Positions 27 through 12,213 of a stretch of DNA of 64,000 bases are shown here, piece by piece. The notes beneath the pieces were generated by a model. It did no database searches, was not told where the DNA came from, and was given only the letters and a program-made list of their open reading frames with translations. How positions within the stretch are numbered: the first letter of the stretch is position 1; each line of letters starts with the position of its first letter. A program made the position numbers and the translations under genes. Source of the stretch: an uncultured Christensenellaceae bacterium (GTDB lineage: Bacteria > Bacillota > Clostridia > Christensenellales > Aristaeellaceae); the NCBI GenBank assembly GCA_905234985.1, contig CAJOJQ010000012.1, positions 1-64,000 of the forward strand, read 5' to 3'.

Positions 27-280
27 CTTTCATCACCCTTTGGTATTATACCATTTCTCGACTTGATCTGCTGTTCTTTCTTAGTTTTTGGAGGTTCTCG
101 GTATTTAAAGAACTGATTACCGCCCGCCGGAGCGTGCGGGAATATGAAGCGTCCTTACGTCCTCGAAAGGAGCTGAACGAGGTCGTCCGATTCTTCTGAT
201 TGCGTGGAAAAGTCGCTATTACAGGAAAACGGATTTGAGTATAGGCTATGCCAATTTTAGACATTGAAGGAAGAATGAGT

Positions 281-991
281 ATGAAGAAGCTGTTTTCGTT
301 GATACTTGCTCTATTGTTTTTGCCTGTTATCGCACTATCAGAAATCCCATATGACCAGTTGGCTGGACTGTCCAAAGCGCAAAAGACGATCCTGAGTTTC
401 AACGTCGATATTGCGATTGCAAGAAAAGAAAACGGCGGCAATAGCGGCATGTATTCCTATGATCTGAATATGGATTTGATGGATTTATCGCTGGAAGAGC
501 TGCGCTGGATGTTTGATTATCTTCACGATAATGCCGACTTGCCAGATCAGCCGAAAAAAGAAACAATTCTGTCCCGGCACGGTATCGAAATCACGGAAAG
601 TAGAGAGATTTTCACAAAAGAAAACCGCCTGGTATTTTGTTTGTATTCCACCATTGCCCAGACAGGCCGCAAACTTGGATACGTGATGCAGGTATATAAC
701 CCAGAGATTTCCCTTGACGTTGACAATCAACGGCTGTCCTATGCCTACTTTTATATGAATTGCTATGAAAACGCGGCTGTGGATGATTTGCGCAATAGGG
801 TGGAAGAATATACGGACGTACTGATAGCCACGCTAACTGCAACCTATCCCGACTTAACCTTCGATTCCATGTGGTTCTGTTGGAAAATTCCGGCCATCCA
901 TCCAGACAACCTGTACACAGCAACATTTTGGTGTGAGAATAGTGAATCCGGCATTGTACGCGGCGAAGGAAAAGGCGTGCTGTATCAATAA
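281..991 (+). CDS. Secreted protein of unknown function
   Basis: A 236-residue protein beginning MKKLFSLILALLFLPVIALS, a typical Sec signal peptide with likely cleavage after the ALS region. The mature part (YDQLAGLSKAQKTI onward) is soluble and mixed alpha/beta, with no motif I recognise. An upstream in-frame ATG exists at 248, but AAGGAAGA lies about 9 bases before the ATG at 281, which also gives the clean signal peptide, so 281 is preferred. The gene is AT-richer than the chromosome to the right of the tRNA and lies just outside the left attachment site, which suggests accessory DNA. No neighbour gives a functional clue. Confidence 0.6.
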   Translation: MKKLFSLILALLFLPVIALSEIPYDQLAGLSKAQKTILSFNVDIAIARKENGGNSGMYSYDLNMDLMDLSLEELRWMFDYLHDNADLPDQPKKETILSRHGIEITESREIFTKENRLVFCLYSTIAQTGRKLGYVMQVYNPEISLDVDNQRLSYAYFYMNCYENAAVDDLRNRVEEYTDVLIATLTATYPDLTFDSMWFCWKIPAIHPDNLYTATFWCENSESGIVRGEGKGVLYQ

Positions 992-1182
992 AAGTCTGTT
1001 CCAGTTTTCTGAAATGGACTGAATATTTGGCAAATATAGTTTACCATGTTTGCTGAAATATATTCATTAACGGTGTCTGCGTCTGTAGTGAACGCGGCAT
1101 CGTTTTTTTTTGCGGAGGAAAGCGGGAAAACCCTGAAAACAAGAAATTCCAAACCCGACATTGGTTCGGATTTGGAATCACT

Positions 1183-1205
1183 TGGCAGGGGAAGAAGGAT
1201 TCGAA
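1183..1205. repeat. attL, left 23-bp direct repeat of the element
   Basis: Begins TGGCAGGGGAAG and ends GATTCGAA. It is identical over 23 bp to 7128-7150, which is the CCA end, acceptor strand and T-arm of tRNA-Trp. Sequence identity stops at both edges (T versus G before, T versus C after). It lies here without the rest of a tRNA, as expected for the element-distal crossover copy. Confidence 0.9.
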
Positions 1206-1313
1206 TAATAAGGACGGCGTTTTTTCTTGTTATCATACGTTATCACAAGCCTTGAAAAATAAAGGGTTCTCGGCTTTTCTGCGCTCATTTGTTATGGCTC
1301 GTTTTTGTGCGTT

Positions 1314-1342
1314 GTGGGTAAAAATGTGGGTCAAAAGTGGGT
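1314..1342 (+). repeat. Left arm-type integrase sites (three GTGGGT repeats)
   Basis: Three direct copies of GTGGGT at 1314-1319, 1326-1331 and 1337-1342, spaced 12 and 11 bp, about one helical turn, each followed by an A-rich stretch (TAAAA, CAAAA, ATAAA). The same motif in the same orientation and phase occurs at 7049-7066 near the other end. Paired arm-type repeats inside both ends are the usual layout for integrases with an N-terminal arm-binding domain, which the integrase here has. Confidence 0.6.
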
Positions 1343-1344
1343 AT

Positions 1345-1366
1345 AAAAAACCCGCCTTTCGGCGGG
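1345..1366 (-). terminator. Intrinsic terminator after the 86-aa gene
   Basis: Stem CCCGCC/GGCGGG with loop TTTC at 1351-1366; on the minus strand it is followed by six T residues (A run at 1345-1350). It ends the leftward transcript of the 1375-1635 gene. Confidence 0.85.
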
Positions 1367-1374
1367 CAACGTGT

Positions 1375-1635
1375 TTAATCGGTTTCCGTTTTCTCCGATA
1401 GAAGCGCGGCGGCTTCCTTTTCCAGCGTGTCAATACGGCTGCACACTTCGCACAGCGCATCTTCCACAGCCGTAAAAAGATACTGATAGGGTTCCGGGTC
1501 ATCCTCCAGCAGAACGATTGTTGCGTCATTAACTTGATCCACCCACTCATGAGCGAAAGCGTCTGCAATGGCTTTCAGCTTACGGGCGGCAATCTTTGTT
1601 TCGGAGATGTAGGTTTCAAAATCGAAGTCTGTCAT
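1375..1635 (-). CDS. Small acidic protein of the element, function unknown
   Basis: An 86-residue protein (MTDFDFETYISETK...) that is acidic and predicted helical, with a probable C-terminal coiled coil (VCSRIDTLEKEAAALLSEK). No recognised domain. GGAAGG lies 8 bases before the ATG. A promoter with TTGAAA and TATAAT on the same strand at 1787-1815 would give a 140-base leader, and an intrinsic terminator follows, so it is probably a monocistronic cargo or accessory gene of the element. Confidence 0.6.
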   Translation of the reverse strand: MTDFDFETYISETKIAARKLKAIADAFAHEWVDQVNDATIVLLEDDPEPYQYLFTAVEDALCEVCSRIDTLEKEAAALLSEKTETD

Positions 1636-1786
1636 GTGTATGCCTTCCTTTCTTCAATTGTCAATGTGCAGTGCTCGGGGCCGGGGGGCCTTGCCTGGCT
1701 ATTGCCGCCGCCTTTAAGGCTGCTCACAGGTACGGCCCGCGCCGGATTGCCGCCGCATTGTCTTGCGTCCCCCTTCGGACAATTGT

Positions 1787-1815
1787 ATTATACTACTAAC
1801 GTTATTAGTTTTCAA
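1787..1815 (-). promoter_or_regulatory. Promoter for the 86-aa gene
   Basis: On the minus strand TTGAAA (1810-1815) is followed after 17 bases by TATAAT (1787-1792). The leader from here to the start codon at 1635 is GC-rich (1670-1780) and holds two GCGGCGGCAAT repeats on the minus strand; I see no open frame in it and cannot assign it. Confidence 0.6.
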
Positions 1816-1894
1816 TATGTAAAAGTTTACAAACTTCTAACGCTATATTTGTATGCTTCTAACGGTAGCATTATTGAGCATGATAGTCTATAAT
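1796..1894 (+). promoter_or_regulatory. CTAACG repeats and -10 box before the RHH gene
   Basis: Direct CTAACG repeats at 1796-1801, 1837-1842 and 1859-1864; the last two share TTCTAACG and are 22 bp apart, about two helical turns. A TATAAT box at 1889-1894 precedes the RHH gene but lacks a good -35. Ribbon-helix-helix proteins commonly bind short direct or inverted repeats in their own promoter, so these are candidate operators. The leftmost copy also overlaps the spacer of the divergent minus-strand promoter, so one protein could control both directions. Confidence 0.5.
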
Positions 1895-1920
1895 GGAATT
1901 TAGGAAAGGGGGGCAAGAGT

Positions 1921-2121
1921 ATGCCGAAAAAACAAACTGAATGGACGAGGGCCTATAATGAAAAGGCTTATGATCGCCTTGCAATCACCGTTCCAAAGGG
2001 CCTAAAAGCCGCCATAGAAGCCCACGCGCGCGCCCAGGGGGAAAGTGTCAACGGGCTTGTGAATCGGCTGCTACGGGCTGATATGGGCGTTTCTGCGGAA
2101 GAATGGAAGCGGGAAGAATAA
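1921..2121 (+). CDS. Ribbon-helix-helix (Arc/CopG-like) DNA-binding protein
   Basis: A 66-residue protein with the RHH signature: a short strand (DRLAITVPKGLKAAIEAHA) followed by helix-turn-helix-like packing (GESVNGLVNRLLRAD). Such proteins act as dimers inserting a beta ribbon into the major groove, and are usually autorepressors, antitoxins or copy-control factors. A strong ribosome binding site (GGAAAGGGGGG) precedes the ATG. CTAACG repeats upstream are the likely binding sites. No toxin gene follows; a bidirectional terminator lies directly downstream. The role in the element is probably transcriptional control. Confidence 0.75.
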   Translation: MPKKQTEWTRAYNEKAYDRLAITVPKGLKAAIEAHARAQGESVNGLVNRLLRADMGVSAEEWKREE

Positions 2122-2148
2122 AAGAGCCCGGATTGCTCCAGGCTCTTT
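2121..2148. terminator. Bidirectional terminator between convergent genes
   Basis: AAAGAGCC (2121-2128) pairs with GGCTCTTT (2141-2148), with an inner GGA/TCC pair; T-rich sequence follows on the plus strand and the A residues give T residues on the minus strand. It separates the RHH gene from the convergent XRE pseudogene. Confidence 0.75.
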
Positions 2149-2150
2149 CT

Positions 2151-2353
2151 TTACTTGGGCCGAATCACGATTTCCAATCCCAACACATCAAGCCATTTCA
2201 CCAGCAGCGATAGGCGGAGTCCTTTTTCTTCCATGCCCGGAAGTATCGCTGCCCGGTGTCGGGATCGTCGGCAAGTTCGGCCATTCGCATTTGGCTGAAT
2301 CCGCGCTTCCGTCGTTCCTGGTCGATCCTGAGGATGATTTCCGCGCTGGTCAT
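2151..2353 (-). pseudogene. Frameshifted XRE-family regulator
   Basis: From the ATG at 2353 the frame reads MTSAEIILRIDQERRKRGFS, a classic XRE helix-turn-helix start, and continues to MAELADDP, but ends early at a TGA after 51 codons. The C-terminal half of such a protein (GMEEKGLRLSLLVKWLDVLG, ending EIVIRPK) is found in another frame and stops at 2151. A single indel around 2260-2290 would restore a protein of about 67 residues. It follows the 2359-3009 gene by 5 bases, so it was the last gene of the leftward operon. A sequencing or assembly indel is the alternative to true decay. Confidence 0.6.
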
Positions 2354-2358
2354 GGCCT

Positions 2359-3009
2359 TTAGTCCACGGCGTCTTTGAAAGCGTCGAAGCCGGACATGGG
2401 AAGCGCACTGTCATAGAATTCGGCTTCGCTGGAAAAATTGTATAATTTCTTGTCCACGATGGTTTGTCCCTTGCTGCCGATCACATCCGCACAGAATCCG
2501 GCCACATTATCAATCAGTCTTCGCGCCTCCGTTGCTGTCATTTTCTGATTGCACATTCTGGCGTAGTCCGTGTGGCTGCGTTCGGCAGGAAGTACACGTT
2601 TCCGCACGATTGAATCGGCAACGTCATTCAACGCAAGCAGGGCCAGATTGTTTCCGCGCATGGCCCTGGCGATGCTGTCCAGTTCGTCGTTGCTCACGTC
2701 CCCCGTGCGCATTTTCAGCGCGGTCAGCATGTTCAGCATTGCGTCCGTCGGCGGTTCCGCGATGAATTTTTCCGCCGCTTCGGCCTGCATCGCCGCCAAA
2801 ATCGGATTGATCGTGGCGACAATGGCGTCCTTTGCCCGTTCTTCTGCCTCGGTGAATCCCCGATTAGCCTCTTGGACTTGCTCGTTGTAGTATCTACTTC
2901 CCCGGTGCGCCTCCAGCCGCGCCAGCGCGGCATCATATGCGGCTCTGCGTGCTGCCTTTCCGTCACAAAAAGATTTCATAAATTCATACAATTTGACACG
3001 ATTTCCCAT
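2359..3009 (-). CDS. Element protein of unknown function, helical
   Basis: A 216-residue, strongly helical, charged protein (MGNRVKLYEFMKSFCDGKAA...) with a central segment (FTEAEERAKDAIVATINPIL) compatible with a coiled coil. AAAGGA sits about 7 bases before its ATG. It follows the DUF5681 gene by 34 bases in the leftward operon and precedes the XRE remnant. I recognise no catalytic motif. Its place beside DUF5681 suggests a phage-derived structural or packaging-related role, but that is inference only. Confidence 0.6.
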   Translation of the reverse strand: MGNRVKLYEFMKSFCDGKAARRAAYDAALARLEAHRGSRYYNEQVQEANRGFTEAEERAKDAIVATINPILAAMQAEAAEKFIAEPPTDAMLNMLTALKMRTGDVSNDELDSIARAMRGNNLALLALNDVADSIVRKRVLPAERSHTDYARMCNQKMTATEARRLIDNVAGFCADVIGSKGQTIVDKKLYNFSSEAEFYDSALPMSGFDAFKDAVD

Positions 3010-3043
3010 TGGTTTTTCCTTTCTGCCGTCTTACGGCTGTTCA

Positions 3044-3340
3044 TCAATCACCAAAAAGATTGAATTCAAAATCAGGTCGATTTTCAAAATCGTTCAGTTT
3101 GTCGGTAAACATGGGCTTTCCGCATGTCCTGTCAAGAACGATTTCAGCGCAACGCAAACGCACATTTGCAGGCGCGGATTCGTCCAAAAGAATCCCTTTA
3201 ATGGTATCCACGGCAATGTCGGAAAGCTGGTAAATCGCTTGAAGCATTTCTGTTTCCACTTCTGACCGCTTGGGCCTCCCCGATGGATTTCCGCTGGTTC
3301 CCTTCGCAAATTGTCCTGTTTTTGTCCTGTTAGCAGGCAT
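3044..3340 (-). CDS. DUF5681 domain phage-type protein
   Basis: The N-terminus carries the DUF5681 signature GQFAKGTSGNPSGRPK, found in many phage and integrative-element proteins. The rest is helical with basic and acidic faces (AIYQLSDIAVDTIKGILLDE). A TTG at 3355 would also open the frame, but GGAGG lies 9 bases before the ATG at 3340, giving 98 residues, so that start is chosen. DUF5681 proteins often sit near terminase genes, and a small-terminase or DNA-recognition role has been suggested by context; no large terminase is present here. A satellite diverting helper packaging is one possible reading. Confidence 0.65.
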   Translation of the reverse strand: MPANRTKTGQFAKGTSGNPSGRPKRSEVETEMLQAIYQLSDIAVDTIKGILLDESAPANVRLRCAEIVLDRTCGKPMFTDKLNDFENRPDFEFNLFGD

Positions 3341-3344
3341 TTTC

Positions 3345-3521
3345 TCATCCTCCAATCATTGTTACAAGCGCCACAATCAGCGCCACAGCCAGCACGCCAA
3401 CGGCACACCACAGCTTCCTGATCGTGCGTCTGTCCCGCGCCTGGAAAAGCTCAAAACGCCAAAACGGCATGTATGTTTTCCCTTCAAAGTGTTCACATAA
3501 TTCTGCATAGTCAATTTTCAT
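3345..3521 (-). CDS. Small single-pass membrane protein
   Basis: A 58-residue frame beginning MKIDYAELCEHFEGKTYMPF with a basic stretch (RDRRTIRKL) followed by one C-terminal membrane segment (CAVGVLAVALIVALVTMIGG), giving an N-in topology. GGGAGG, 9 bases upstream, lies within the last codons of the nuclease gene, and the stop falls between the TTG and ATG candidates of the next gene, so the spacing fits a tightly packed operon. No family recognised. Such short membrane proteins in phage operons include exclusion or lysis accessory proteins; nothing here distinguishes these. Confidence 0.55.
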   Translation of the reverse strand: MKIDYAELCEHFEGKTYMPFWRFELFQARDRRTIRKLWCAVGVLAVALIVALVTMIGG

Positions 3522-3526
3522 CCGCG

Positions 3527-3850
3527 TTACCTCCCTCGTTGGTACAGTTCAAGCCAATCTTCAAGCCTCATTGTCACCCTCCAGCTCTCCCGGTTTTTTC
3601 GGTGGAAAACACATGGCACACCATCATGAAAACGCTCTGCGTCCCTGATTGCCTGGTTCATTGCTTCGGATAAGTTCAATTTTTCCCGGCGTTTACATTC
3701 GACATGAACGCCGTCAAGACCGAATATATCCGGGCAACTTCCATAGCTTTGACTTGGCCCGCGCCGTACAGAATACCCGGCTTGCTGGAGGATTGTAGCA
3801 AGTTCTTCTTCCCCGCGCTTACCTTTACGCTGTGAACTCATTCCACTCAT
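3527..3850 (-). CDS. PDDEXK-family nuclease, Holliday-junction-resolvase-like
   Basis: A 107-residue protein with the resolvase/VRR-NUC-like core: KGKRGEEELATILQQAGYSV (the Glu of the first helix), PDIFGLDGVHVECKRREKL, matching the PD-(D/E)XK pattern with PD, then E-C-K as the E-X-K pair. The small size matches single-domain phage nucleases. It starts in a 4-base ATGA overlap with the replication-type gene, so the two are translationally coupled. It would cut branched or linear DNA during replication or recombination of the element; RusA-like resolution for a replicating episome is plausible. Confidence 0.7.
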   Translation of the reverse strand: MSGMSSQRKGKRGEEELATILQQAGYSVRRGPSQSYGSCPDIFGLDGVHVECKRREKLNLSEAMNQAIRDAERFHDGVPCVFHRKNRESWRVTMRLEDWLELYQRGR

Positions 3851-4539
3851 GATGTAATAGCATCCTCCTCAAAAAGATGTGAATATTTTGACTTTCGTGC
3901 TTCCTCGATCAAATCATCCCCCACGGCATCCAGTTCTCCTGGCTGATAGTTTCGTTGTGTGTACCGCTGCGCAGAAACGGTTTTCCCCGGTTTCTCCCGT
4001 CCCCATGACCTGAGAAGAGATTTCCAATCTTCCACCACCCGCCCATCCTTTGACCGCCAGCCCTGCCGTTCCATCGTTTCCCAAAATCCTTGAGCGTCAA
4101 CCGAAACAAGTCCTTTTTCTTGGCAATAGTTTTCAATTTCAGTAATGGATGGGTGGATGGATGAATTGTTAATTGGCTCATTGGATTGTTTATTGGTTGG
4201 ATTGTTTATTGGTTTTCCAGTGGTTAACGTGTCGTTATCCATTGGTTCTTCTATGCGGGGCGCATTTCGGTGATTTCGCGCCACCATCCTCCAATATTCT
4301 GAAATTCCTTCATCTGCTGATTGGCAAAGCGCTTCCAGACAATTTGAAAGACGACGTTCCAACTTTGGAAGATCGGGGATAGTATCGGGGGATATGCCTT
4401 TCACTCTCGCCGTATCCCAATGTTCCATGAAATGGCTGAAAACAGTTTCCTTTTCTTCGGGCTTGAGGCCCTCAAACATCCTAAGTCCACCGTCAGAAAG
4501 GCGACAATTTGGCACAACAGTTTTTCGTTGGTACGCCAT
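3847..4539 (-). CDS. Phage-type replication protein (DnaD/replisome-organiser-like)
   Basis: A 230-residue protein in three parts: an N-terminal helical domain (residues 1-98), a low-complexity linker rich in Asn, Pro, Ser and Thr (about 100-128), and a C-terminal domain with ITEIENYCQEKGL and GWRSKDGRVVEDWKSLLRSW, the pattern found at the end of many phage replication organisers and DnaD-like proteins. Two tandem 16-bp iterons lie inside the linker-coding DNA (4183-4214), as in initiators whose origin is inside their own gene. It lies 4 bases after the upstream gene and overlaps the nuclease gene by 4. Inferred role: opening the element's origin and recruiting host helicase loader. Confidence 0.6.
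   Translation of the reverse strand: MAYQRKTVVPNCRLSDGGLRMFEGLKPEEKETVFSHFMEHWDTARVKGISPDTIPDLPKLERRLSNCLEALCQSADEGISEYWRMVARNHRNAPRIEEPMDNDTLTTGKPINNPTNKQSNEPINNSSIHPSITEIENYCQEKGLVSVDAQGFWETMERQGWRSKDGRVVEDWKSLLRSWGREKPGKTVSAQRYTQRNYQPGELDAVGDDLIEEARKSKYSHLFEEDAITS
4172..4214. repeat. Candidate origin iterons inside the replication gene
   Basis: The 16-mer GGATTGTTTATTGGTT occurs twice in perfect tandem (4183-4198 and 4199-4214), with further ATTGG cores at 4172-4176 and 4180-4184 and another near 4240. The 16-bp period is not a multiple of three, so the repeats are not explained by a protein repeat. The region is AT-rich and codes for the non-conserved linker. This suits initiator-binding iterons of a replication origin. 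Confidence 0.55.
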
Positions 4540-4543
4540 TCCA

Positions 4544-4846
4544 TCACCGTCCGCACTTTTTTAGCACGCGCCGCGCTTCCCTGACGGCAAGAAAAATGTT
4601 TTTAGCCCGTGACTCGCTTTCGGCCACAAACGCGGCAATCTCGTTGGGATCATCCGACCGCCAAAAACCTGATTGCGACGGGCTGGAGGAGGACAAGATC
4701 GCGCATCCATCCTCGCACGGCAAACGGCGCAAATTGGCAATTATCAAGCGTGCTTCCCGATCATTGCAATTCCAAAGCTTTCGAAGTTTCTCCCGGCTGA
4801 TCGCGTTATCCCGTCCAAATGGAATATCAAGCCGATTTGCCGTCAT
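4544..4846 (-). CDS. Phage-type DNA-binding protein, winged-helix-like
   Basis: A 100-residue protein (MTANRLDIPFGRDNAISREK...) with an N-terminal segment, KLRKLWNCNDREARLIIANL, that looks like a helix-turn-helix, and a basic helical C-terminus (AVREARRVLKKCGR). The track start at 4882 is rejected because GGGAGG lies 7 bases before the ATG at 4846. It sits between the excisionase and the replication protein, a place where phages often encode a replication accessory or regulator. No precise family recognised. Confidence 0.6.
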   Translation of the reverse strand: MTANRLDIPFGRDNAISREKLRKLWNCNDREARLIIANLRRLPCEDGCAILSSSSPSQSGFWRSDDPNEIAAFVAESESRAKNIFLAVREARRVLKKCGR

Positions 4847-4848
4847 TT

Positions 4849-5031
4849 TTACACCTCCCTCTCGCTTTGAGAAACTAACCACGCTTCAAAGTCTGCCCGT
4901 CTAACGAACAATCGCCGACCAAGACGGAAAACAGGCAAAGAATCATTGTTGAGAAGCTCATACGCCCGAACACGTGAAAACCCATATTCCGTAATAAGTT
5001 CTTTCGCCCCGATGACCAGTTTACTTTCCAC
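4849..5031 (-). CDS. xis: Excisionase-like MerR/HTH_17 protein
   Basis: A 60-residue protein with the winged-helix pattern of excisionases: GAKELITEYGFSRVRAYELL (turn and recognition helix) then LPVFRLGRRLFVRRADFEAW (wing). The start is GTG at 5031 with AAAGGG 7 bases upstream. Such proteins bend DNA at attachment arms and bias the integrase to excision. It is the first gene of the leftward operon, divergent from the repressor and integrase, so its synthesis would be controlled by the same switch that controls the replication genes. Confidence 0.75.
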   Translation of the reverse strand: MESKLVIGAKELITEYGFSRVRAYELLNNDSLPVFRLGRRLFVRRADFEAWLVSQSEREV

Positions 5032-5075
5032 ATAATCACCCTTTCAATTTTTCTGTCAAATACCGGCCAGTACTC

Positions 5076-5115
5076 TTGACGCTTCTATCATACCGTGGTA
5101 TAATTGTTTTGTACA
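5076..5115. promoter_or_regulatory. Face-to-face promoters with operator: the element's switch
   Basis: Rightward: TTGACG (5076-5081), 17-base spacer, TATAAT (5099-5104), serving repressor and integrase. Leftward: TGTACA (5110-5115), 17-base spacer, TATGAT (5087-5092), serving xis and the replication operon. An inverted repeat ATACC-GT-GGTAT (5090-5101) covers both -10 boxes and is the best candidate operator for the XRE protein. Overlapping promoters make transcription mutually exclusive. Confidence 0.65.
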
Positions 5116-5156
5116 GGCGATAATAAGACATAATACAGGAAAGGATGATATAAAAA

Positions 5157-5882
5157 TTGTCTTCTGAAAACAATTATATTGAATGGGTTGGTAAAAGAGT
5201 GGAAGAATTACGCAAGTCAAACAAAATCACGCGCGAACAGTTAGAAGAAGACTGTGATCTCCCTTCAAACTGTATTCGCCAGATAGAAAGAGGGCCACGG
5301 AAAACGCTTGATATTGGCGTTCTGTGTAATCTTGCGGAATACTTCGATGTTGATCCTGAATACCTGTTGGGGGTTCAAGACTGTAAAAGGCGGGATGTTG
5401 CCGATGCATCAAAAGTGACCGGGCTTTCTTATGAGGCGGTGGATGCTTTGAAATCTATTGGCTATTTACAAAATATAGACAGGTTTCACGCCTTATCTGC
5501 TTTGATCTGCTCGCCATCTTTCGTTCCTTTACTCATTCATATAGCAAATTTCTGTACACCAATCGAGGAAGAAATACCTGGATTTAATATCTCTGTTTCA
5601 GAGGTAACTAACGCAAGCATTCAAAAATATGTTACACAAAGTCTGGAAGAAGCTCGAAAACAATGCGAAAAGAAAATGGGTTGGTATAAAGAAGTTCTCC
5701 CCATTATCCGGGTTCTTACCAGTAAACTGGCAGTCAAGGAAAAGGAAGAAGGGAAAATGTATAGCGACGAAAGACTTGTAAAGGAAGTTATTAGCCCAAT
5801 CGGATTAGACACGGACGGAAAGAACCTATTCATGGATTTTCTAAATTATTATCGGAATAAAGAAGGAAAGGTGGAAGAATGA
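5157..5882 (+). CDS. XRE-family repressor of the element
   Basis: A 241-residue protein starting at a TTG with AGGAAAGG upstream. Residues 12-66 form an XRE helix-turn-helix (RVEELRKSNKITREQLEEDC, then NCIRQIERG, ending AEYFDVDPEYLLG). The remaining 170 residues are helical and of no recognised family; there is no LexA-type Ser-Lys protease motif, so induction by RecA cleavage is not predicted. A helper-phage protein or other ligand could act on the C-terminal part, as with Stl repressors; that is inference. The stop overlaps the integrase start by 4 bases. Confidence 0.75.
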   Translation: MSSENNYIEWVGKRVEELRKSNKITREQLEEDCDLPSNCIRQIERGPRKTLDIGVLCNLAEYFDVDPEYLLGVQDCKRRDVADASKVTGLSYEAVDALKSIGYLQNIDRFHALSALICSPSFVPLLIHIANFCTPIEEEIPGFNISVSEVTNASIQKYVTQSLEEARKQCEKKMGWYKEVLPIIRVLTSKLAVKEKEEGKMYSDERLVKEVISPIGLDTDGKNLFMDFLNYYRNKEGKVEE

Positions 5883-7042
5883 TGGCAAAGAAAGCAGTTT
5901 CCGGGAATGGAAGCATCCGGCAGCGTCCCGATGGAAGATGGGAAGGGCGTATTTCCCTGGGGCGTGACGGCGGCGGGAAACGGGTTTCCAAGTCCTTCTA
6001 TGGCAGCACGCAAAAGGAAGTAGCTGAAAAAATCCGGCAAGCCACCGCGCAGAAGGATGAAGGGACATTCATTGCACCAAATAAAATGACGGTTTCTTCC
6101 TGGATGAACACATGGTTAGCTGAATACACGGGCAGTATCAAGGAAAACACGCTCGTTTCCTATCGTGTACAAACTGAACATAATATTCTGCCCCTGCTGG
6201 GCGCTGTGAAGCTGTCCGCGCTCCAGCCTCACCACGTTCAAAAGGCTGTGAATACCCTGTTCAAACGGCCTGAAAAGCCCCTTTCCGCTAAATCTATCAA
6301 GAATTGTTATGGTGTTCTTCACAAGGCTCTTTCCCAGGCTGTGCTAAATGGCTACATTGCGAAAAATCCTTGTGACGGTGTACAGCTTCCCAGGGTGGAA
6401 AAGAAAGAGATTTCACCCCTGAATGAAGCACAAATCCGTGAATTTCTGAAAGCTATCAAAGGGCACAGAAATGAAATCCTTTTCCGGGTTGCGCTGTTCA
6501 CGGGTATGCGTCAAGGGGAATTGATGGGCCTGCAATGGGAAAACGTGGATTTCAAAGCCGGGTCAATTCTTGTCTGTCAGCAAATGATTCACGAAAAGAA
6601 AAAAGACGGTGCTTATAAACTGGCCCCCACGAAAACAGACGGCATCCGCAAAATCACCCCGGCCCCCATCGTTATGGATTGGCTGAAAGAGTGGAAAAAG
6701 GAACAGGCTGTTCAGCGGCTGTCCCTGGGGGATAAATGGGGAGATGAATTTGATGGGCTTGTGTTTACGGATGAAATGGGAAAACACATGAGGAACACAA
6801 CTCTAACCCATGAGGCTACTATGCTTGGAAAGAAAATCGGAAAAGAAGGTTTCCGTTTCCATGATCTGAGGCACAGTTACGCCGTTGCGGCTATCCGTGC
6901 CGGGGATGATATGAAAACCGTTTCAAGCAACTTGGGCCACACTACAATCAGCATCACGATGGATATTTACGCCAGCTTCACCGATGACATGGCAACGGCA
7001 TCCGCAAACCGCATGAACGCCTATATCAGCGCCAATTTCTAA
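5879..7042 (+). CDS. int: Tyrosine-family integrase
   Basis: A 387-residue phage/ICE integrase. Residues 10-55 are the AP2-like arm-binding domain (GSIRQRPDGRWEGRISLGRD), 70-170 the SAM-like core-binding domain, 180-380 the catalytic domain. All catalytic residues are visible: R211 (TGMRQGE), K252, H328 and R331 (HDLRHSY), H354 (LGHTT) and the nucleophile Y364 (MDIYA). It catalyses recombination between the tRNA-Trp attB and the element's attP through 23-bp cores. Its gene ends 85 bp from attR, the normal position, and overlaps the repressor gene by 4 bases, so the two are co-expressed. Confidence 0.95.
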   Translation: MMAKKAVSGNGSIRQRPDGRWEGRISLGRDGGGKRVSKSFYGSTQKEVAEKIRQATAQKDEGTFIAPNKMTVSSWMNTWLAEYTGSIKENTLVSYRVQTEHNILPLLGAVKLSALQPHHVQKAVNTLFKRPEKPLSAKSIKNCYGVLHKALSQAVLNGYIAKNPCDGVQLPRVEKKEISPLNEAQIREFLKAIKGHRNEILFRVALFTGMRQGELMGLQWENVDFKAGSILVCQQMIHEKKKDGAYKLAPTKTDGIRKITPAPIVMDWLKEWKKEQAVQRLSLGDKWGDEFDGLVFTDEMGKHMRNTTLTHEATMLGKKIGKEGFRFHDLRHSYAVAAIRAGDDMKTVSSNLGHTTISITMDIYASFTDDMATASANRMNAYISANF

Positions 7043-7048
7043 GCTGGT

Positions 7049-7066
7049 GTGGGTAAAAGTGTGGGT
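7049..7066 (+). repeat. Right arm-type integrase sites (two GTGGGT repeats)
   Basis: GTGGGTAAAA occurs at 7049 and 7061, 12 bp apart and just after the integrase stop codon. They match the three copies at 1314-1342 near attL in sequence, spacing and orientation. Confidence 0.6.
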
Positions 7067-7091
7067 AAAAGCATATTTTTAAGCAAAGAAA

Positions 7092-7121
7092 AAGCCCTGA
7101 AACGCTTATGTTTCAAGGCTT
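7092..7121. terminator. Bidirectional terminator between integrase and tRNA-Trp
   Basis: AAGCCCTGAAAC (7092-7103) and GTTTCAAGGCTT (7110-7121) form a 12-position stem with one mismatch and a 6-base loop. T-rich sequence follows on both strands, so it can end both the integrase mRNA and the tRNA transcript. Confidence 0.8.
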
Positions 7122-7127
7122 TTCTTG

Positions 7128-7150
7128 TGGCAGGGGAAGAAGGATTCGAA
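7128..7150. repeat. attR, right 23-bp direct repeat within tRNA-Trp
   Basis: Identical to 1183-1205. On the minus strand it covers the tRNA from the T-loop (TTCGAA) through the acceptor strand to the encoded CCA, so integration leaves a full tRNA gene. Confidence 0.9.
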
Positions 7151-7201
7151 CCCTCAACAAAGGTTTTGGAGACCCACGTGTTACCATTACACCATTCCCC
7201 T
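7128..7201 (-). tRNA. tRNA-Trp (anticodon CCA)
   Basis: A 74-base cloverleaf: acceptor AGGGGAA/TTCCCCT, D stem GTGT/ACAC, anticodon loop CTCCAAA with CCA, variable loop TGTT, T stem GAGGG/CCTTC with TTCGAAT loop, discriminator G and encoded CCA. The anticodon stem TGGGT/ACCTT is weak: the outermost pair is T-T and the next a G-T wobble. It is driven by a consensus promoter and is the target site of the integrative element. Confidence 0.93.
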
Positions 7202-7243: not shown

Positions 7244-7316
7244 CAGTTTTTTTCTGGGTTTGCGCAGAAAGCCGGGAAAAAGCCGGGAAAAGCCGGGAAA
7301 GCCGGGCGGGGTTTGC

Positions 7317-7345
7317 TTGCCATTTCCGGCGCGATTTTATATAAT
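7317..7345 (+). promoter_or_regulatory. Promoter of the P-loop kinase gene
   Basis: TTGCCA (7317-7322), 17-base spacer, TATAAT (7340-7345), 38 bases before the ATG at 7383. Confidence 0.75.
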
Positions 7346-7382
7346 GGGGAAGGAAAAAAGCGCGAAGAATCGAGGCTTGCGT

Positions 7383-8132
7383 ATGATTGAGCATCCGATA
7401 ACCATCAACGGGATCGACGTGCTGGCACGGTACAGCGAACGGGCGGTGAAAGAAATTTTTTTGCCGGTTTTGAAAAAACTGGAGAGCTTACGGAGGGAAA
7501 AGGGCGGCAGGGCGCTCATGATGCTGGCCGCACCGCCCGGCGCGGGGAAAAGCACGCTGCTCAGCTTCCTGGAACGGCTGTCCCGGGAACAGGGCATGGA
7601 AGGCGTTCAGTCCATCGGCATGGACGGCTTTCACCGGCGGCAGGAATATCTTCTATCCCACCAGATTGAACGGGACGGGCGGCTGATCTCCATGGTAGCC
7701 ATCAAGGGCGCGCCGATCACCTTTGACCTGGAAAGCCTTACGGAACGGGTGGAAAGGGTGGCGGCGGGGGAGACCTGCGGCTGGCCGAAGTACGACAGGC
7801 TGCTTCACAATCCGGTGGAAAACGCCTTGCTGGTACACGGCGATATCGTGCTGCTGGAGGGCAATTATCTGCTGCTGGATGTGGATGGCTGGCGCGATTT
7901 AAAGTCTTTTGCGGATTACACCGTTTCCATCCGCGCCGATGAAGGGCTTCTGCGGGATCGGCTCATTGAAAGGCGGATCAAAACGGGCGTGGAAAAGGAC
8001 GCCGCCACCCAATTTGTGGATTTCAGCGATATGCCCAACGTGCGCCTTTGCTTAGAAAAAACCTTGCCCGCCGACGTACAGCTGACCGTCGACGGGCAAG
8101 GAGATTATCACATCGCAAGCATTACAGGGTGA
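7383..8132 (+). CDS. Nucleoside/nucleotide kinase family P-loop protein
   Basis: A 249-residue protein of the uridine kinase/pantothenate kinase-like group. The Walker A motif APPGAGKST is at residues 50-58; SIGMDGFHRR fits the substrate-binding loop of this group and DIVLLEGNYLLLD the Walker-B-like strand. RADEGLLRDRLIERRIKTG resembles the lid region. A longer in-frame start at 7125 lies inside the tRNA and is rejected; GAGG precedes the ATG at 7383 and a good promoter is in place. Likely phosphorylates a sugar, nucleoside or vitamin-type substrate; specificity is not visible. Its end overlaps the convergent Na/Pi gene by 11 bases. Confidence 0.8.
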   Translation: MIEHPITINGIDVLARYSERAVKEIFLPVLKKLESLRREKGGRALMMLAAPPGAGKSTLLSFLERLSREQGMEGVQSIGMDGFHRRQEYLLSHQIERDGRLISMVAIKGAPITFDLESLTERVERVAAGETCGWPKYDRLLHNPVENALLVHGDIVLLEGNYLLLDVDGWRDLKSFADYTVSIRADEGLLRDRLIERRIKTGVEKDAATQFVDFSDMPNVRLCLEKTLPADVQLTVDGQGDYHIASITG

Positions 8133-9873
8133 ACCGGGCGACGTAATCCTCGTAGGCGATTTGGAAGGACAGGGACTGGGCTTCCTTGATGCGGCGCAGG
8201 CCCGCGTGAGTGTCGAAAGCGTCTTCTTCCAATTCCAGCATGGCAACGGCGATATTGGAGCAGTGGTCGCTGACGCGCTCGATGCTGGTGAGGACGTCGT
8301 TGAATACGAAGCCCTGCCGGATGGTGCAGTTGCCCTGCTGCAGGCGCTCGATGTGACGGCGCTTGGATTCGTCGCAGAGCTGGTCGATCAGCTCTTCCAG
8401 GGGTTCCACCCGGGAAGCCAGGGTCAAGTCGCTCTTTTCAAAGGCCTGGGTGGTCAGCCGCACGATCTCGCGCACAGCCGCGCTGAGTACGGACAGCTCC
8501 CGGGTGGCCTGATCGGAAAAGTCGATTTTCTTTTCGTGAATTTCCTGCGCGCTCTGGGCGATGTTCAGGGCGTGGTCTGAAATGCGCTCAAAATCCGTGA
8601 GCGTGTGCAGATATTTGGACACATCCTCGTTCTGGCGGCGGGTAAGCTCCCGTCCCGTCAGCTTCACCAGATAGGAACCCAGCGCGTCCTCGTACTTGTC
8701 GCAGTCGGATTCCATCTTTTCTACTTCCGCGAACCCTTCCTTGGAATAATTGGCCGTCAGGGAAAGGGCGGCGGAAAGGGCTTCCCGGGCGCGCTCCGCC
8801 ATGTCCACGATGGTCAGGCGGCTCTGCTCCACGGCCAGGGCCGGGTGAGTCAGGAAGCGTTCTTCCAGCCGCACGGTGAGCTGATCGGCTTCCTGGGGCT
8901 TTTCCCGAACGATGAGCCGCACCAGCTTTTCCAGCGCGTCGGTGAAGGGCAGAAGCAGCAGCACCATGGCGAGGCGCAGGACGGTGTTCACAAAGGCCAG
9001 GGAGAAGGGGTTCATAATGGCTTTCACGAAGGGGAAAACGATAAACGCTTCCACCAGATAGAACAGCGCCGCGCAGACGATCACGCTGATGGTGGCGGCC
9101 ACCAGGTAAACCGCCGCCGTGCGCTTGCCGTCGGCGTTTGCGCCCAAGGCGGAAAGCAGCACGGGGAACGCCGCGCCGATGGCGACGCCCATGAGCAGGG
9201 GCAGGGCGGATTCAAAGGTCATGGCCCCGGTCACAGAAAGGGCCTGCACGATACCGACGGCGGCGGAGGCGGACTGCAAAATGCCCGTAAACAGCGCGCC
9301 CGCCAGAATGCCGAGGATGGGGTTGGAGAGCGTCGCCAGGGTTTCGGTGAACCAGGGCTGCTTGCCAAGGTCCGAAACGGCGTTGCTCATGACGCTCATG
9401 CCGAACATGAGTACCGTAAAGCCCATCAGGATATCGCCCAAATGGTGCTGTTCCTTCTTTTTGGAAAACACCCGCAGGAACACGCCGATGATTGCCACGA
9501 TGCCGGTGAGGGTGGCGGTGGAAAGCAGGCTCAGGATGCCGGAACTGCCTTCAATGTAGCTTAAGCTGATGATCCAGCCGGTGATGGAGGTGCCCAAAAT
9601 GGCCCCCAAAATCACCCCGATGGCTTGACGCAGCTTCATCATGCCCGCGTTGACGAAGCCCACCACCATGACCGACGTGGCGCAGGAGGATTGGATCACC
9701 GCCGTGACGCCCGTGCCCAGCAGCACGCCGCGAAAGGTGGTGCTGGAGAGCCGGTAAAGCACCAGCTCCAATTGGTTTCCAGCCACGCGCTTTAAGCCGT
9801 CGCCCATGAGCGTCATGCCGAACAGGAACAGGGCAATGCCGCTGCCCAGGGAAATGATCTGCGTAATGTCCAT
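8122..9873 (-). CDS. Na+/phosphate cotransporter family protein with PhoU-like domain
   Basis: A 583-residue membrane protein of the NptA/YjbB type. The N-terminal 320 residues contain two inverted transport repeats, each with the QSS-type motif (AVIQSSCATSVMVVGF near residue 60 and GILQSASAAVGIVQAL near 215). Residues 350-583 form a cytoplasmic helical PhoU-like domain (ADFERISDHALNIAQ type motifs: LTDFERISDHALN and TSIERVSDHCSNI). It would move phosphate with sodium and be tuned through the PhoU part. Start at the ATG at 9873; the GNAT gene upstream ends 31 bases before it. An inverted repeat TCATGATG/CATCATGA lies in that gap. Confidence 0.92.
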   Translation of the reverse strand: MDITQIISLGSGIALFLFGMTLMGDGLKRVAGNQLELVLYRLSSTTFRGVLLGTGVTAVIQSSCATSVMVVGFVNAGMMKLRQAIGVILGAILGTSITGWIISLSYIEGSSGILSLLSTATLTGIVAIIGVFLRVFSKKKEQHHLGDILMGFTVLMFGMSVMSNAVSDLGKQPWFTETLATLSNPILGILAGALFTGILQSASAAVGIVQALSVTGAMTFESALPLLMGVAIGAAFPVLLSALGANADGKRTAAVYLVAATISVIVCAALFYLVEAFIVFPFVKAIMNPFSLAFVNTVLRLAMVLLLLPFTDALEKLVRLIVREKPQEADQLTVRLEERFLTHPALAVEQSRLTIVDMAERAREALSAALSLTANYSKEGFAEVEKMESDCDKYEDALGSYLVKLTGRELTRRQNEDVSKYLHTLTDFERISDHALNIAQSAQEIHEKKIDFSDQATRELSVLSAAVREIVRLTTQAFEKSDLTLASRVEPLEELIDQLCDESKRRHIERLQQGNCTIRQGFVFNDVLTSIERVSDHCSNIAVAMLELEEDAFDTHAGLRRIKEAQSLSFQIAYEDYVARFTL

Positions 9874-9904
9874 AAGCGTCCCCTTTCATGATGACTTTGC
9901 CGCA

Positions 9905-10351
9905 TCATGACAGCTTCTTTTGAAATAGCTGATCCGTCGTGCCGTAAATCGTTTCGCAATCCCCAATTTTTTTAAATCCGTACTTTTCATAAAGGCCGTA
10001 CTCGCCGCTCATAAGGTAAATATTTTCATAACCGATGGCTTTCGCGTAATTGCACGCCGCCGCGATCATCTTTTCGGAGATTCTTTTTCCCCGACTCCTT
10101 TCGTCCACGAATACAAAACCGATGAAGGGCGCGTATCCGCTGTCCTCCGGCAACTCGTCCTTCTTTGCGAACGTACAATATCCAACGATTTGGTTTTTTT
10201 CTATGGCCGCGATCACCCGTTCCGGATCCTGGAATTCGTGATTCCTCATCATTTTGGCAAGATAAGGCCCTGCTTTCCAGGAACAGGTTTCGGCGAAAGC
10301 AATCGTTTGATCCCAAAACGGATGCTCCTGCGTCATCAAAACGATTTCCAT
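9905..10351 (-). CDS. GNAT-family N-acetyltransferase
   Basis: A 148-residue single-domain GNAT protein. FIGFVFVDERSRGKRISEKM matches strand 4 and the acetyl-CoA pyrophosphate loop (usually Q/RxxGxG/A; here RSRGKRIS), and LMSGEYGLYEKYGFKKIG is the typical C-terminal YEKxGF segment. AAAGGAGG lies 7 bases before the ATG. It sits in the same direction as the Na/Pi gene with a 31-base gap and may be co-transcribed. The acceptor substrate (small amine, antibiotic or peptide N-terminus) cannot be read from sequence. Confidence 0.85.
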   Translation of the reverse strand: MEIVLMTQEHPFWDQTIAFAETCSWKAGPYLAKMMRNHEFQDPERVIAAIEKNQIVGYCTFAKKDELPEDSGYAPFIGFVFVDERSRGKRISEKMIAAACNYAKAIGYENIYLMSGEYGLYEKYGFKKIGDCETIYGTTDQLFQKKLS

Positions 10352-10599: not shown

Positions 10600-12213
10600 A
10601 TGTATCAGGCTTTGTACCGGGTATGGCGGCCCAAAACCTTTTCGGACATGGTGGGCCAGGAAGCCATCGTGCGCACCCTGCGCAATCAGGTGATGACGGG
10701 GCGGGTGGCCCACGCCTATCTGTTCTGCGGCAGCCGGGGCACGGGCAAAACCAGTGCGGCCCGCATCCTGACCCGGGCCATCAACTGCCTGAATCCCCAG
10801 AACGGCGACCCCTGCGGAGAATGCGAAAGCTGCCGCACCATCGAGGCCGACGCCTCCTTCGACGTGTATGAAATGGACGCCGCCAGCAACAGCCGGGTGG
10901 AGGAAATTCGTGAATTGCTGGAAAAGGTGGATTATCCGCCTCAGTTCGGCAAATATAAGGTGTATATCATCGACGAAGTACACATGCTGAGCAACGCGGC
11001 GTTCAACGCGCTGCTGAAAACCCTGGAAGAGCCGCCGGAATACATGGTGTTTATCTTAGCGACCACCGAGCCGCAGAAGCTGCCCTCCACCATCCTTTCC
11101 CGCTGCCAGCGGTACGATTTCGGCCGCTATTCCGAGGAACAGATCGCCGGGCACCTGCAAAAGGTGGTGGAGCAGAGCGGGGAAACCGCCGAGCCGGAAG
11201 CGCTGGAGCTGGTGGCTCGCGCGGCGGAGGGCGGCATGCGCGACGCCCTGTCCATCCTGGATATGTGCATGGGTTCCGGGGAAAAGATCACGGAGGAACA
11301 CGTGCGCGCCGCCCTGGGCACGGCGGATCGGGCCTTCCTGTTTTCCTTCGCCGACGCTATCGCCCACCGGGACGGGGGCGAAGCCCTGCGGCTGATCGAG
11401 GAATTGATGCGCGGGGGCCGGGACGTGCAGGTGTTTTTGAAGGACGTGTCGGCGCACCTGCGCCTGCTCATGGCCGCGCTGCTGTGCGGGCCGGGGGAGG
11501 GCCTGCCGGGCGTCAGCGGCGAAAACGCCAAGCGATACGCCGAGCAGGCCAAGCAGTTTTCCCAGCAGCGCCTGCTTCGGGTGCTGGACGGCTGCATGCG
11601 CGCCGAGGCGGATACCCGCTGGGCGGCTTCGGCCCGGTCTGTGCTGGAGGTGTTCGCCCTGAAAGCCTGCGACCAGCCGGAAGAAAAGGATATGGAAGCC
11701 CTGCTGGAGCGCGTGGCAGAACTGGAACAGCGTTTATATGAGCTGGAAAAGAACGGCGTGCGCGCCGCCGCTCCGGCTGACGGCGCGCAGACGGAGAAAA
11801 AACCGGAAAAGCCCGCCGGGCCTGTGTCCCGGCCCATCGTGGAAACGCCGGTTCCCGCAGGCAGCCGCGCGCCCAAGGACGTGTGGAACGACGCGCTGAA
11901 AACCATCAAAAAAACGGAACCCGCCATTTACGGCCCCCTGTCCCGGGCCAAATACGGCGGATTCCAAAACGGCGTATACCGGGCCTTGTTCGGTCCCGGC
12001 GAAGAAATTTTTATGACTATGCTTTCCGCCCCGGAGCGGAAAGGCAAAATTGAAAACGCGCTGAACCAGGCGGGGGGCGATCACGCCGCATTTGAGGCGC
12101 TGCCCCAGATGATGCCCGCGGGCGCCGACGCCGAGGCCGAAAAACGTCAGGAAAAAAGCGTGAACGACCTGATCGACATGTTCGGCCGGAACAAGGTTCA
12201 GATCGACGAGTAA
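10600..12213 (+). CDS. dnaX: DNA polymerase III subunits gamma/tau
   Basis: A 537-residue clamp-loader ATPase. Walker A GSRGTGKT at residues 44-51, the zinc-binding cysteines C63, C72, C75 and C78, Walker B VYIIDEVHML at 121-130, sensor ATTEP and the SRC arginine-finger motif at 167-169 are all present, followed by the lid and collar domains and a tau-like C-terminal extension after about residue 370. AGAGGAGG places the start at the ATG of MYQALYRV (10600); the ATG at 10594 is too close to the Shine-Dalgarno. The usual downstream partners ybaB and recR are absent; a membrane protein gene follows 18 bases later. Confidence 0.97.
   Translation: MYQALYRVWRPKTFSDMVGQEAIVRTLRNQVMTGRVAHAYLFCGSRGTGKTSAARILTRAINCLNPQNGDPCGECESCRTIEADASFDVYEMDAASNSRVEEIRELLEKVDYPPQFGKYKVYIIDEVHMLSNAAFNALLKTLEEPPEYMVFILATTEPQKLPSTILSRCQRYDFGRYSEEQIAGHLQKVVEQSGETAEPEALELVARAAEGGMRDALSILDMCMGSGEKITEEHVRAALGTADRAFLFSFADAIAHRDGGEALRLIEELMRGGRDVQVFLKDVSAHLRLLMAALLCGPGEGLPGVSGENAKRYAEQAKQFSQQRLLRVLDGCMRAEADTRWAASARSVLEVFALKACDQPEEKDMEALLERVAELEQRLYELEKNGVRAAAPADGAQTEKKPEKPAGPVSRPIVETPVPAGSRAPKDVWNDALKTIKKTEPAIYGPLSRAKYGGFQNGVYRALFGPGEEIFMTMLSAPERKGKIENALNQAGGDHAAFEALPQMMPAGADAEAEKRQEKSVNDLIDMFGRNKVQIDE

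Follow-up and report, generated by a model that had tools for sequence, protein, structure and literature searches.

The stretch of DNA analysed here (the window, 64,000 nt) is the first 64 kb of contig CAJOJQ010000012.1 (C12, 80,794 bases) in the draft genome of an uncultured Christensenellaceae bacterium (3.57 Mb, 97 contigs). Near its left end a small integrative element occupies a tRNA-Trp gene, and we consider this element to be probably a minimal phage satellite resembling the phage-inducible chromosomal islands (PICIs). It is bounded by a perfect 23-bp direct repeat, with one copy at 1183-1205 (attL) and the other at 7128-7150 (attR). ARAGORN found an intact tRNA-Trp(cca) at 7128-7201 on the minus strand, and the attR copy is the 3' end of this tRNA gene. 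The G+C content is 0.48 in the element and 0.595 in positions 8001-64000 of the window. Loci, genomes and contigs used for comparison are given below as L, G and C numbers.

As only 1,182 bp of contig C12 precede attL, the empty site was sought in other genomes and was found in a genome of the same genus (G008:C193), where the 23-bp repeat is present in a single copy. This contig matched the left flank of the window (100-1205) with 98.9 % identity over 1,108 bp, with the tRNA directly after, and the right flank (7297-9971) with 95.9 % identity over 2,675 bp. When the two window flanks were joined (215 bases), they aligned to the empty site of G008 without gaps. Thus, the element is 5,945 bp long from repeat start to repeat start and the DNA left of attL is chromosome. 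A second element left of attL was rejected as a candidate, since the left flank is continuous with the chromosome at the empty site. A first-pass annotation of the same sequence had described sharp 23-bp boundaries, a tRNA re-formed intact and a 5.97-kb unit; the first two are borne out, and the size holds if both repeat copies are counted but not from start to start. Virion genes contiguous beyond attL, which that annotation had named as evidence against a satellite, are absent.

Just inside both ends lie five of the six matches to GTGGGTAAAA-like repeats (at most one mismatch) in the element, compared with three matches in the 56,001 bp outside. Three of them are at 1314-1346 (plus strand), and two copies occur at the same end of the related element L009 (4094 and 4106). 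Two further GTGGGTAAAA repeats were located by the repeat scan at 7049-7070 (plus strand). Their placement is that of the arm sites of a tyrosine integrase, which they likely are.

Two genes run rightward toward the tRNA, a repressor of the HTH_19/HTH_3 type (5157-5882, plus; PF12844, 1.8e-09) and a full-length tyrosine integrase (5879-7042, plus; PF00589, 9.6e-24 and PF14659, 3.6e-13). A divergent control region (5032-5156), containing a conserved stretch common to L009, separates the repressor from a leftward series on the minus strand. This series consists of an excisionase-like HTH_17 protein (4849-5031; PF12728, 6.5e-07; phrog_66, 2.4e-05), a 112-aa early-operon protein (4544-4882; phrog_2113, 1.9e-07; 63 % identity in L009), the replication-type protein p230 (3847-4539; phrog_15768, 2.7e-07), whose tail matches the host DnaD, a Holliday-junction nuclease of the Hjc/PDDEXK type (3527-3850; PF24608, 7e-09; phrog_244, 2.6e-23), a 58-aa open reading frame (ORF; 3345-3521) matched with 33 % identity by an ORF at the corresponding position of L009, a DUF5681 protein (3044-3355; PF18932, 4.2e-08) proposed here as the small terminase subunit (TerS), and p216 (2359-3009), a candidate packaging or capsid-redirection factor with a low-confidence helical model.

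Ten ORFs of the element were searched in Pfam and PHROGs (E ≤0.1) and in NCBIfam, and the repressor and integrase in Pfam. No relaxase, large terminase subunit (TerL), capsid, portal, tail or lysis family was found among them, nor any primase family (Pfam, PHROGs, NCBIfam) or the mobilisation family by which an integrative mobilisable element would be recognised. The structural, TerL and lysis genes of a complete prophage are likewise absent between the att sites. The first-pass annotation had listed an integrase, an excisionase, a repressor and replication-type genes, with integrase and repressor on one strand and excisionase and replication on the other, and no structural, packaging ATPase, lysis or conjugation gene. 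Strand layout and the integrase, excisionase-like, repressor, Hjc/PDDEXK and DUF5681 matches agree with that description, and the three family searches returned none of the gene classes said to be missing. When the whole element was compared with plasmids by blastn, no match was obtained, and an IMG/VR pattern scan with its integrase gave two distant relatives only.

The first-pass annotation had suggested looking for the same gene order at tRNA-Trp in related genomes, and such a relative exists. L009 (RUG563; G017) is a 7.3-kb element at tRNA-Trp, bounded by the same 23-bp repeats (3963-3985 and 11247-11269) with non-element DNA on both sides, in which much of the layout is kept. Identities to the window are 97 % for the integrase, 75 % for Hjc, 71 % for the excisionase, 71 % for p230, 65 % for the repressor and 26 % for p216. 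In the DUF5681 region, L009 carries a 157-aa helix-turn-helix (HTH) protein with a TerS match (phrog_4044, 3e-09). When this TerS was compared with phage records, 13 matches were obtained, consisting of nine named Streptococcus satellite phages, three unannotated human-faecal contigs and one 31-kb viral record from rodent faeces.

Further small elements were found at other tRNA genes. L157 (G078) lies between repeats at tRNA-Leu(taa), and L158 (G275) likewise at tRNA-Leu(gag); their TerS genes (phrog_2538, 1.5e-06 and phrog_51, 9.2e-27, respectively) stand at most one gene from p216. L145, a bounded small element at tRNA-Val, contains Hjc and DUF5681 plus a second TerS (phrog_1206, 7.7e-08) and has no p216 match. 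L175 (G409), at tRNA-Arg, has a repeat of 83 % identity at its ends, and the 193-aa gene beside its p216 relative has no assigned family. In the case of L176 (G443), a TerS like PDB 3zqp (7.1e-11) is about two genes from the p216 relative; the ends of this element are uncertain because its 20-21 bp repeat occurs three times. On the 5.4-kb contig L174 (G432), genes for Hjc, p216 and a ribbon-helix-helix protein were present. L044:3098-11754 (G009:C30) is an element of 8.6 kb which occupies tRNA-Arg between repeats of 48 bp and carries a 66-67 % relative of p230; it also contains exonuclease VIII, an SSB-like ORF and an ERCC4-type nuclease, and has no p216 match. L114:345-6394 (G028:C77), a small element at tRNA-Trp, has a 52 % identical integrase, a primase-helicase (phrog_1883), a TerS (phrog_606, 1.3e-14) and a 300-aa neighbour. 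It is closer to a standard PICI; its contig ends on the left and no attL was seen.

A TerS could be assigned in 8 of the 12 elements or contigs in this set (window, L009, L044, L114, L117/L170, L122, L145, L157, L158, L174, L175 and L176), through DUF5681 in the window, L145 and L122 and through a family or structure match in L009, L157, L158, L176 and L114. A sigma-factor-like gene was observed directly or one gene before TerS in L157 and L158 (phrog_351) and, by eye, in L176 and L123; it is possibly a late-gene switch, and none was recognised in the window element.

A small terminase role is proposed for DUF5681 from its position in prophage stretches and from profile comparison. The family was matched in 11 of 300 family genomes, the window's own included, and seven stretches (L145-L151) were read among the 15 places besides that of the window. 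In three of the seven (L147, L148 and L149), TerL is the gene directly after DUF5681 (phrog_38; 5.4e-69, 8.3e-65 and 1.8e-68), and in L148 TerL is followed by a portal gene. This place strengthens the earlier suggestion that DUF5681 is the packaging-like protein of the element. When DUF5681 was aligned with HTH-TerS alignments, a C-terminal segment of 37 columns was found in common (hhalign 71.7 %, E 3.5e-05), a comparison which is moderate and short. Literature searched for DUF5681 in connection with terminase yielded a single Salmonella phage paper.

A match to the p216 profiles was obtained in four of the 308 genomes searched in the family and in four of the 396 searched in the order, the window's own genome being in both counts. 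Loci outside the window were recorded in G017 (L009), G078 (L157), G275 (L158 and L159), G432 (L174), G409 (L175) and G443 (L176). The relatives lie in bounded small elements (L009, L157, L158 and L175), in L176, a stretch of the size of an element whose ends are uncertain, or on the small contigs L122 and L174; that of L159 is truncated by the contig end and its context is unreadable. Reading of the ORFs that neighbour these relatives showed no capsid, portal or tail gene; PHROGs covered six ORFs of L157, four of L158 and none of L174-L176. The p216 relative in MT838598, an unannotated 5,080-bp human-faecal contig named 'Bacteriophage sp.', scored 52.6 bits, compared with 8.2 for the best of 997 shuffles. 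The 124-bp terminal repeat of this contig suggests a circle. The records of the MT83xxxx series are only probably from the virus-particle study PMC8361208, in whose main text the BioProject is given and no such accessions appear; encapsidation of MT838598 is therefore not claimed.

Comparison of p216 with known packaging families and with PADLOC defence families gave no match (DUF5681 was outside the latter search), and comparison with solved structures gave chance-level matches only. Its model, made from a two-sequence alignment, has a mean predicted local distance difference test score (pLDDT) of 63 and a predicted template modelling score (pTM) of 0.39, and only two long N-terminal helices are usable. 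Where its context is readable, the p216 family appears to belong to small satellite-like elements, usually near TerS, and looks new. The p216-like ORFs beside TerS in MT837714 (L123) and MT837364 (L124) were not counted, as 218 of 998 and 814 of 995 shuffles, respectively, scored as high or higher. As a separate observation, L124 is a 7-kb faecal contig on which TerS is closely followed by tail-assembly-like ORFs and a tape-measure protein, by eye, with no TerL or capsid gene noticed between.

For p230, the closest relatives outside the window (66-74 % identity) are in L009 and L044, both bounded small elements. Family phrog_15768 is common to p230, to proteins of L157, L044 and L123 and to the DnaD-like loader of L158, and corresponds to the C-terminal part of p230; the N-terminal part has no assigned family. 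Something matched p230 in 26 of 29 genus genomes, and outside the three elements only approximately residues 174-224 were matched. In the window's own genome the match is the very end of a 484-aa DnaB_2/DnaD protein, the next gene being an AAA+ loader, and this host tail is nearly constant in the 15 genus genomes read. When the three elements of the genus with p230 were compared with host tails, they scored 120, 149 and 140 with the tail of their own genus and at most 76 with that of any other genus. The own-genus tail is the best match for the window, L009, L044, L048 and L031. The rule fails for L157 (74 with genus g1, 68 with its own) and L047 (91 with g7, 66 with its own). In genus g32, the tail is absent from the three hosts read and from all three such replication proteins, and the replication proteins of L145 and L158 have no host-like DnaD tail. 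As g1 contributes 15 of the 25 host tails and its three proteins are mutually related, the host-tail match is a trend and not an independent count.

Judged from these alignments, p230 ends in what is nearly a copy of the DnaD tail of its host, an arrangement which looks new. The DnaD tail of Bacillus subtilis binds single-stranded DNA and holds a DnaB-interaction region (PMC10201434), and hijacking of the helicase loader DnaI by a phage protein has been described (PMC4887207). We infer that p230 may recruit host helicase loading.

PICIs usually have a primase or Pri-Rep of their own. The window element has neither and contains p230 and Hjc instead, and at 5.9 kb it also differs from the Gram-positive PICIs of the Staphylococcus aureus pathogenicity island (SaPI) type in size; primase/helicase genes are present at tRNA-Trp in L114 and L010. 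It shares with those PICIs an integrase and repressor on one strand and excisionase, replication and TerS-like genes on the other, in divergent operons, together with att repeats, an intact attB in a relative, no capsid, portal, tail or lysis genes and no TerL. Its TerS candidate is DUF5681, so placed by position in prophage stretches and by profile comparison, the match to phrog_2538 being weak by itself (E=0.098). In place of known capsid-redirection genes it has p216, and no helper is known. A PICI pri gene is named in PMC11364771. The Streptococcus satellite phages (Javan group) have a similar map in the two records viewed, and it is nine of them that the L009 TerS matches; they differ in that the window's TerS candidate is of the DUF5681 type, the hosts are uncultured Clostridia and the replication genes are others. 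The Vibrio phage-inducible chromosomal minimalist islands (PICMIs) are similar in very small size and reduced gene set (PMC10803314). Their model consists of int, alpA and prim, inserted at fis, whereas the window element has no prim, sits at tRNA-Trp and carries a TerS-like gene. MT838598 has its DUF5681 (53 %) directly beside the p216 relative and no virion gene noticed among its ORFs; unlike the window element, it has a VapE-like helicase instead of p230, no integrase seen and the terminal repeat.

We therefore did not file the element as a strict PICI, because the usual primase is missing and no packaging was observed. The first-pass annotation had proposed a satellite, and the boundaries and empty site, the bounded sister elements, the TerS genes in them (that of L009 matching Streptococcus satellite phages), the place of DUF5681 before TerL, the faecal contig MT838598 and the DnaD-like tail of p230 support but do not prove this; the lifestyle itself (helper, induction, encapsidation) is inferred. 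If the element is such a satellite, a helper phage would relieve the repressor, and integrase and excisionase would then cut the element out. Binding of p230 to the element origin, with its DnaD-like tail recruiting the host helicase-loading machinery, would mean that the element needs no primase of its own, and the Hjc-type nuclease would resolve branched DNA. The DUF5681 protein, as TerS, would direct the helper TerL to satellite DNA. At this stage p216 may assist, perhaps by adapting the capsid or the terminase of the helper to a genome of 6 kb, and the DNA would travel in helper particles and integrate at tRNA-Trp.

Several results weigh against the satellite. No induction, excised circle, particle or helper was observed. 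A primase, usual in PICIs, is missing, and 5.9 kb is small against the 9.5-kb PICI average (PMC10803314). The two lines of profile evidence for DUF5681 as TerS are weak or short, as noted above; among its other neighbourhoods, the relative in L151 is about 4 kb from TerL, L146 runs into the end of its contig and in L150 the neighbour order was not clear. No TerS was found in L044 (four ORFs searched in PHROGs), in L117/L170 (the G011 element) or in L174, in the ORFs searched or read. IMG/VR pattern scans gave no relative of p230 or p216, and tblastn of both in phage records gave none; the latter missed the p216 relative of MT838598, which rests on other comparisons. TerL of the phrog_38 class, the partner of DUF5681, was not found in the window's own draft genome and occurs in 1 of 29 genus genomes. 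In favour of the satellite, TerL-type matches are common in the genus, phrog_2 being matched in 28 of the 29 at E 0.001 and in 26 at 1e-20, though this profile also matches in 11 of 14 control genomes. In the window's own genome the best of these is on C13 (5.3e-39) and adjoins a portal-like ORF named by eye, and no resident helper was identified. Lastly, a small HTH-like regulator beside p216 (2151-2414, minus; named by eye) is apparently split over two frames, its 51-aa piece having no Pfam or PHROGs match, which may be decay or an assembly error.

That split regulator would suit a decaying prophage at tRNA-Trp, from which the late genes were lost while the early operon and TerS remained. 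Distant p230 relatives in two prophage-looking stretches (L047 and L048, ORFs named by eye) and DUF5681 relatives beside TerL point the same way. We nevertheless consider this origin distinctly unlikely, as neither the att sites nor the remaining main ORFs are damaged, and much the same compact layout is met again at several tRNA genes and in further genera, there with repeats of their own, so that the unit is apparently passed on as a whole. Outside the window, the two p230 relatives nearest in sequence belong to bounded elements of small size, and beside the p216 relatives no virion gene was noticed where the context is readable. Homologues confined to complete prophages, the other finding which the first-pass annotation held would tell against a satellite, were looked for, and the closest p230 relatives and the readable p216 relatives were found in small elements, in one element-sized stretch or on small contigs.

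It is also unlikely, in our view, that the element excises and replicates but is never packaged, spreading by natural transformation or by the conjugation of another element, DUF5681 then being a regulator that binds DNA. The ORFs searched gave no match to a relaxase or mobilisation family, DUF5681 stands in the place of TerS in three prophage stretches, and other elements have recognised TerS of other families. On the other side, no packaging was observed, L044, whose p230 relative has 67 % identity, showed no recognisable TerS in the four of its ORFs searched in PHROGs, and satellite spread by competence has been reported in Streptococcus thermophilus (PMC13376191). A role of DUF5681/TerS and p216 mainly against phages, as a block to helper or competitor and not in packaging of the element, appears highly improbable. 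Satellites can carry interference genes, including blockers of tail assembly (PMC11364771), and the failure of p216 to match known packaging families would agree with such a role; against it stand the lack of a PADLOC defence family for p216 and the TerS-like position, which fits packaging directly. The minimal PICI-like satellite remains the reading we judge probable.

Two genes of the element lie beyond p216 at its distal end. A 66-aa ribbon-helix-helix protein (1921-2121, plus; RHH_5, 8.6e-05; phrog_13890, 2.4e-18) is recurrent in the family, with relatives in L009, L145, L157, L158 and L170. An 86-aa cargo ORF (1375-1635, minus) matched nothing in Pfam, PHROGs or NCBIfam with a useful score. 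The close relative of the ribbon-helix-helix gene in L117:6016-10362/L170 (G011:C156, ~7.72-23.3 kb) belongs to an element of about 15.5 kb between tRNA-Trp att copies, in which a 1,448-aa tape-measure protein (phrog_58, 4.1e-61) lies between excisionase and helicase-primase and no capsid, portal or terminase was noticed. Tape-measure genes have already been published for the PICI-like element (PLE) and capsid-forming PICI (cf-PICI) satellites (PMC12987554). C-terminal integrase fragments with 94-99 % identity to that of the window were also seen at tRNA-Trp near contig ends, in L011 and L060 (one contig, G020:C6) and in L064 (G027:C211), with an unrelated ORF upstream of the fragment in L011. 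In L113 (G009:C40), ParA- and ParB-like ORFs and a large surface protein, named by eye, lie beside tRNA-Trp; thus, several kinds of element may use this site.

The literature on Clostridia PICIs, satellites with terminase, SatelliteFinder and DnaD tails in phages, as far as it was covered, held no recognisable account of this lineage, p216 having no name by which to search. As a tentative proposal, which we hold possible but short of probable, the elements would form an undescribed satellite lineage of uncultured Clostridia, marked by a satellite-specific p216 that acts with whichever TerS adjoins it and maybe reshapes helper packaging unlike the known routes. Its members would replicate with host machinery through a near-copy of the DnaD tail of the host genus, a docking peptide tying satellite to host. 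The findings suggest that a bacterial group of rumen and gut harbours a satellite of very small size with a TerS, and p216 offers a marker by which further elements of this sort may be found. DUF5681, so far an uncharacterised family, gains a testable role as small terminase. The DnaD-tail match suggests a route by which a primase-less satellite may take over host replication, and a possible reason for its confinement to one genus.

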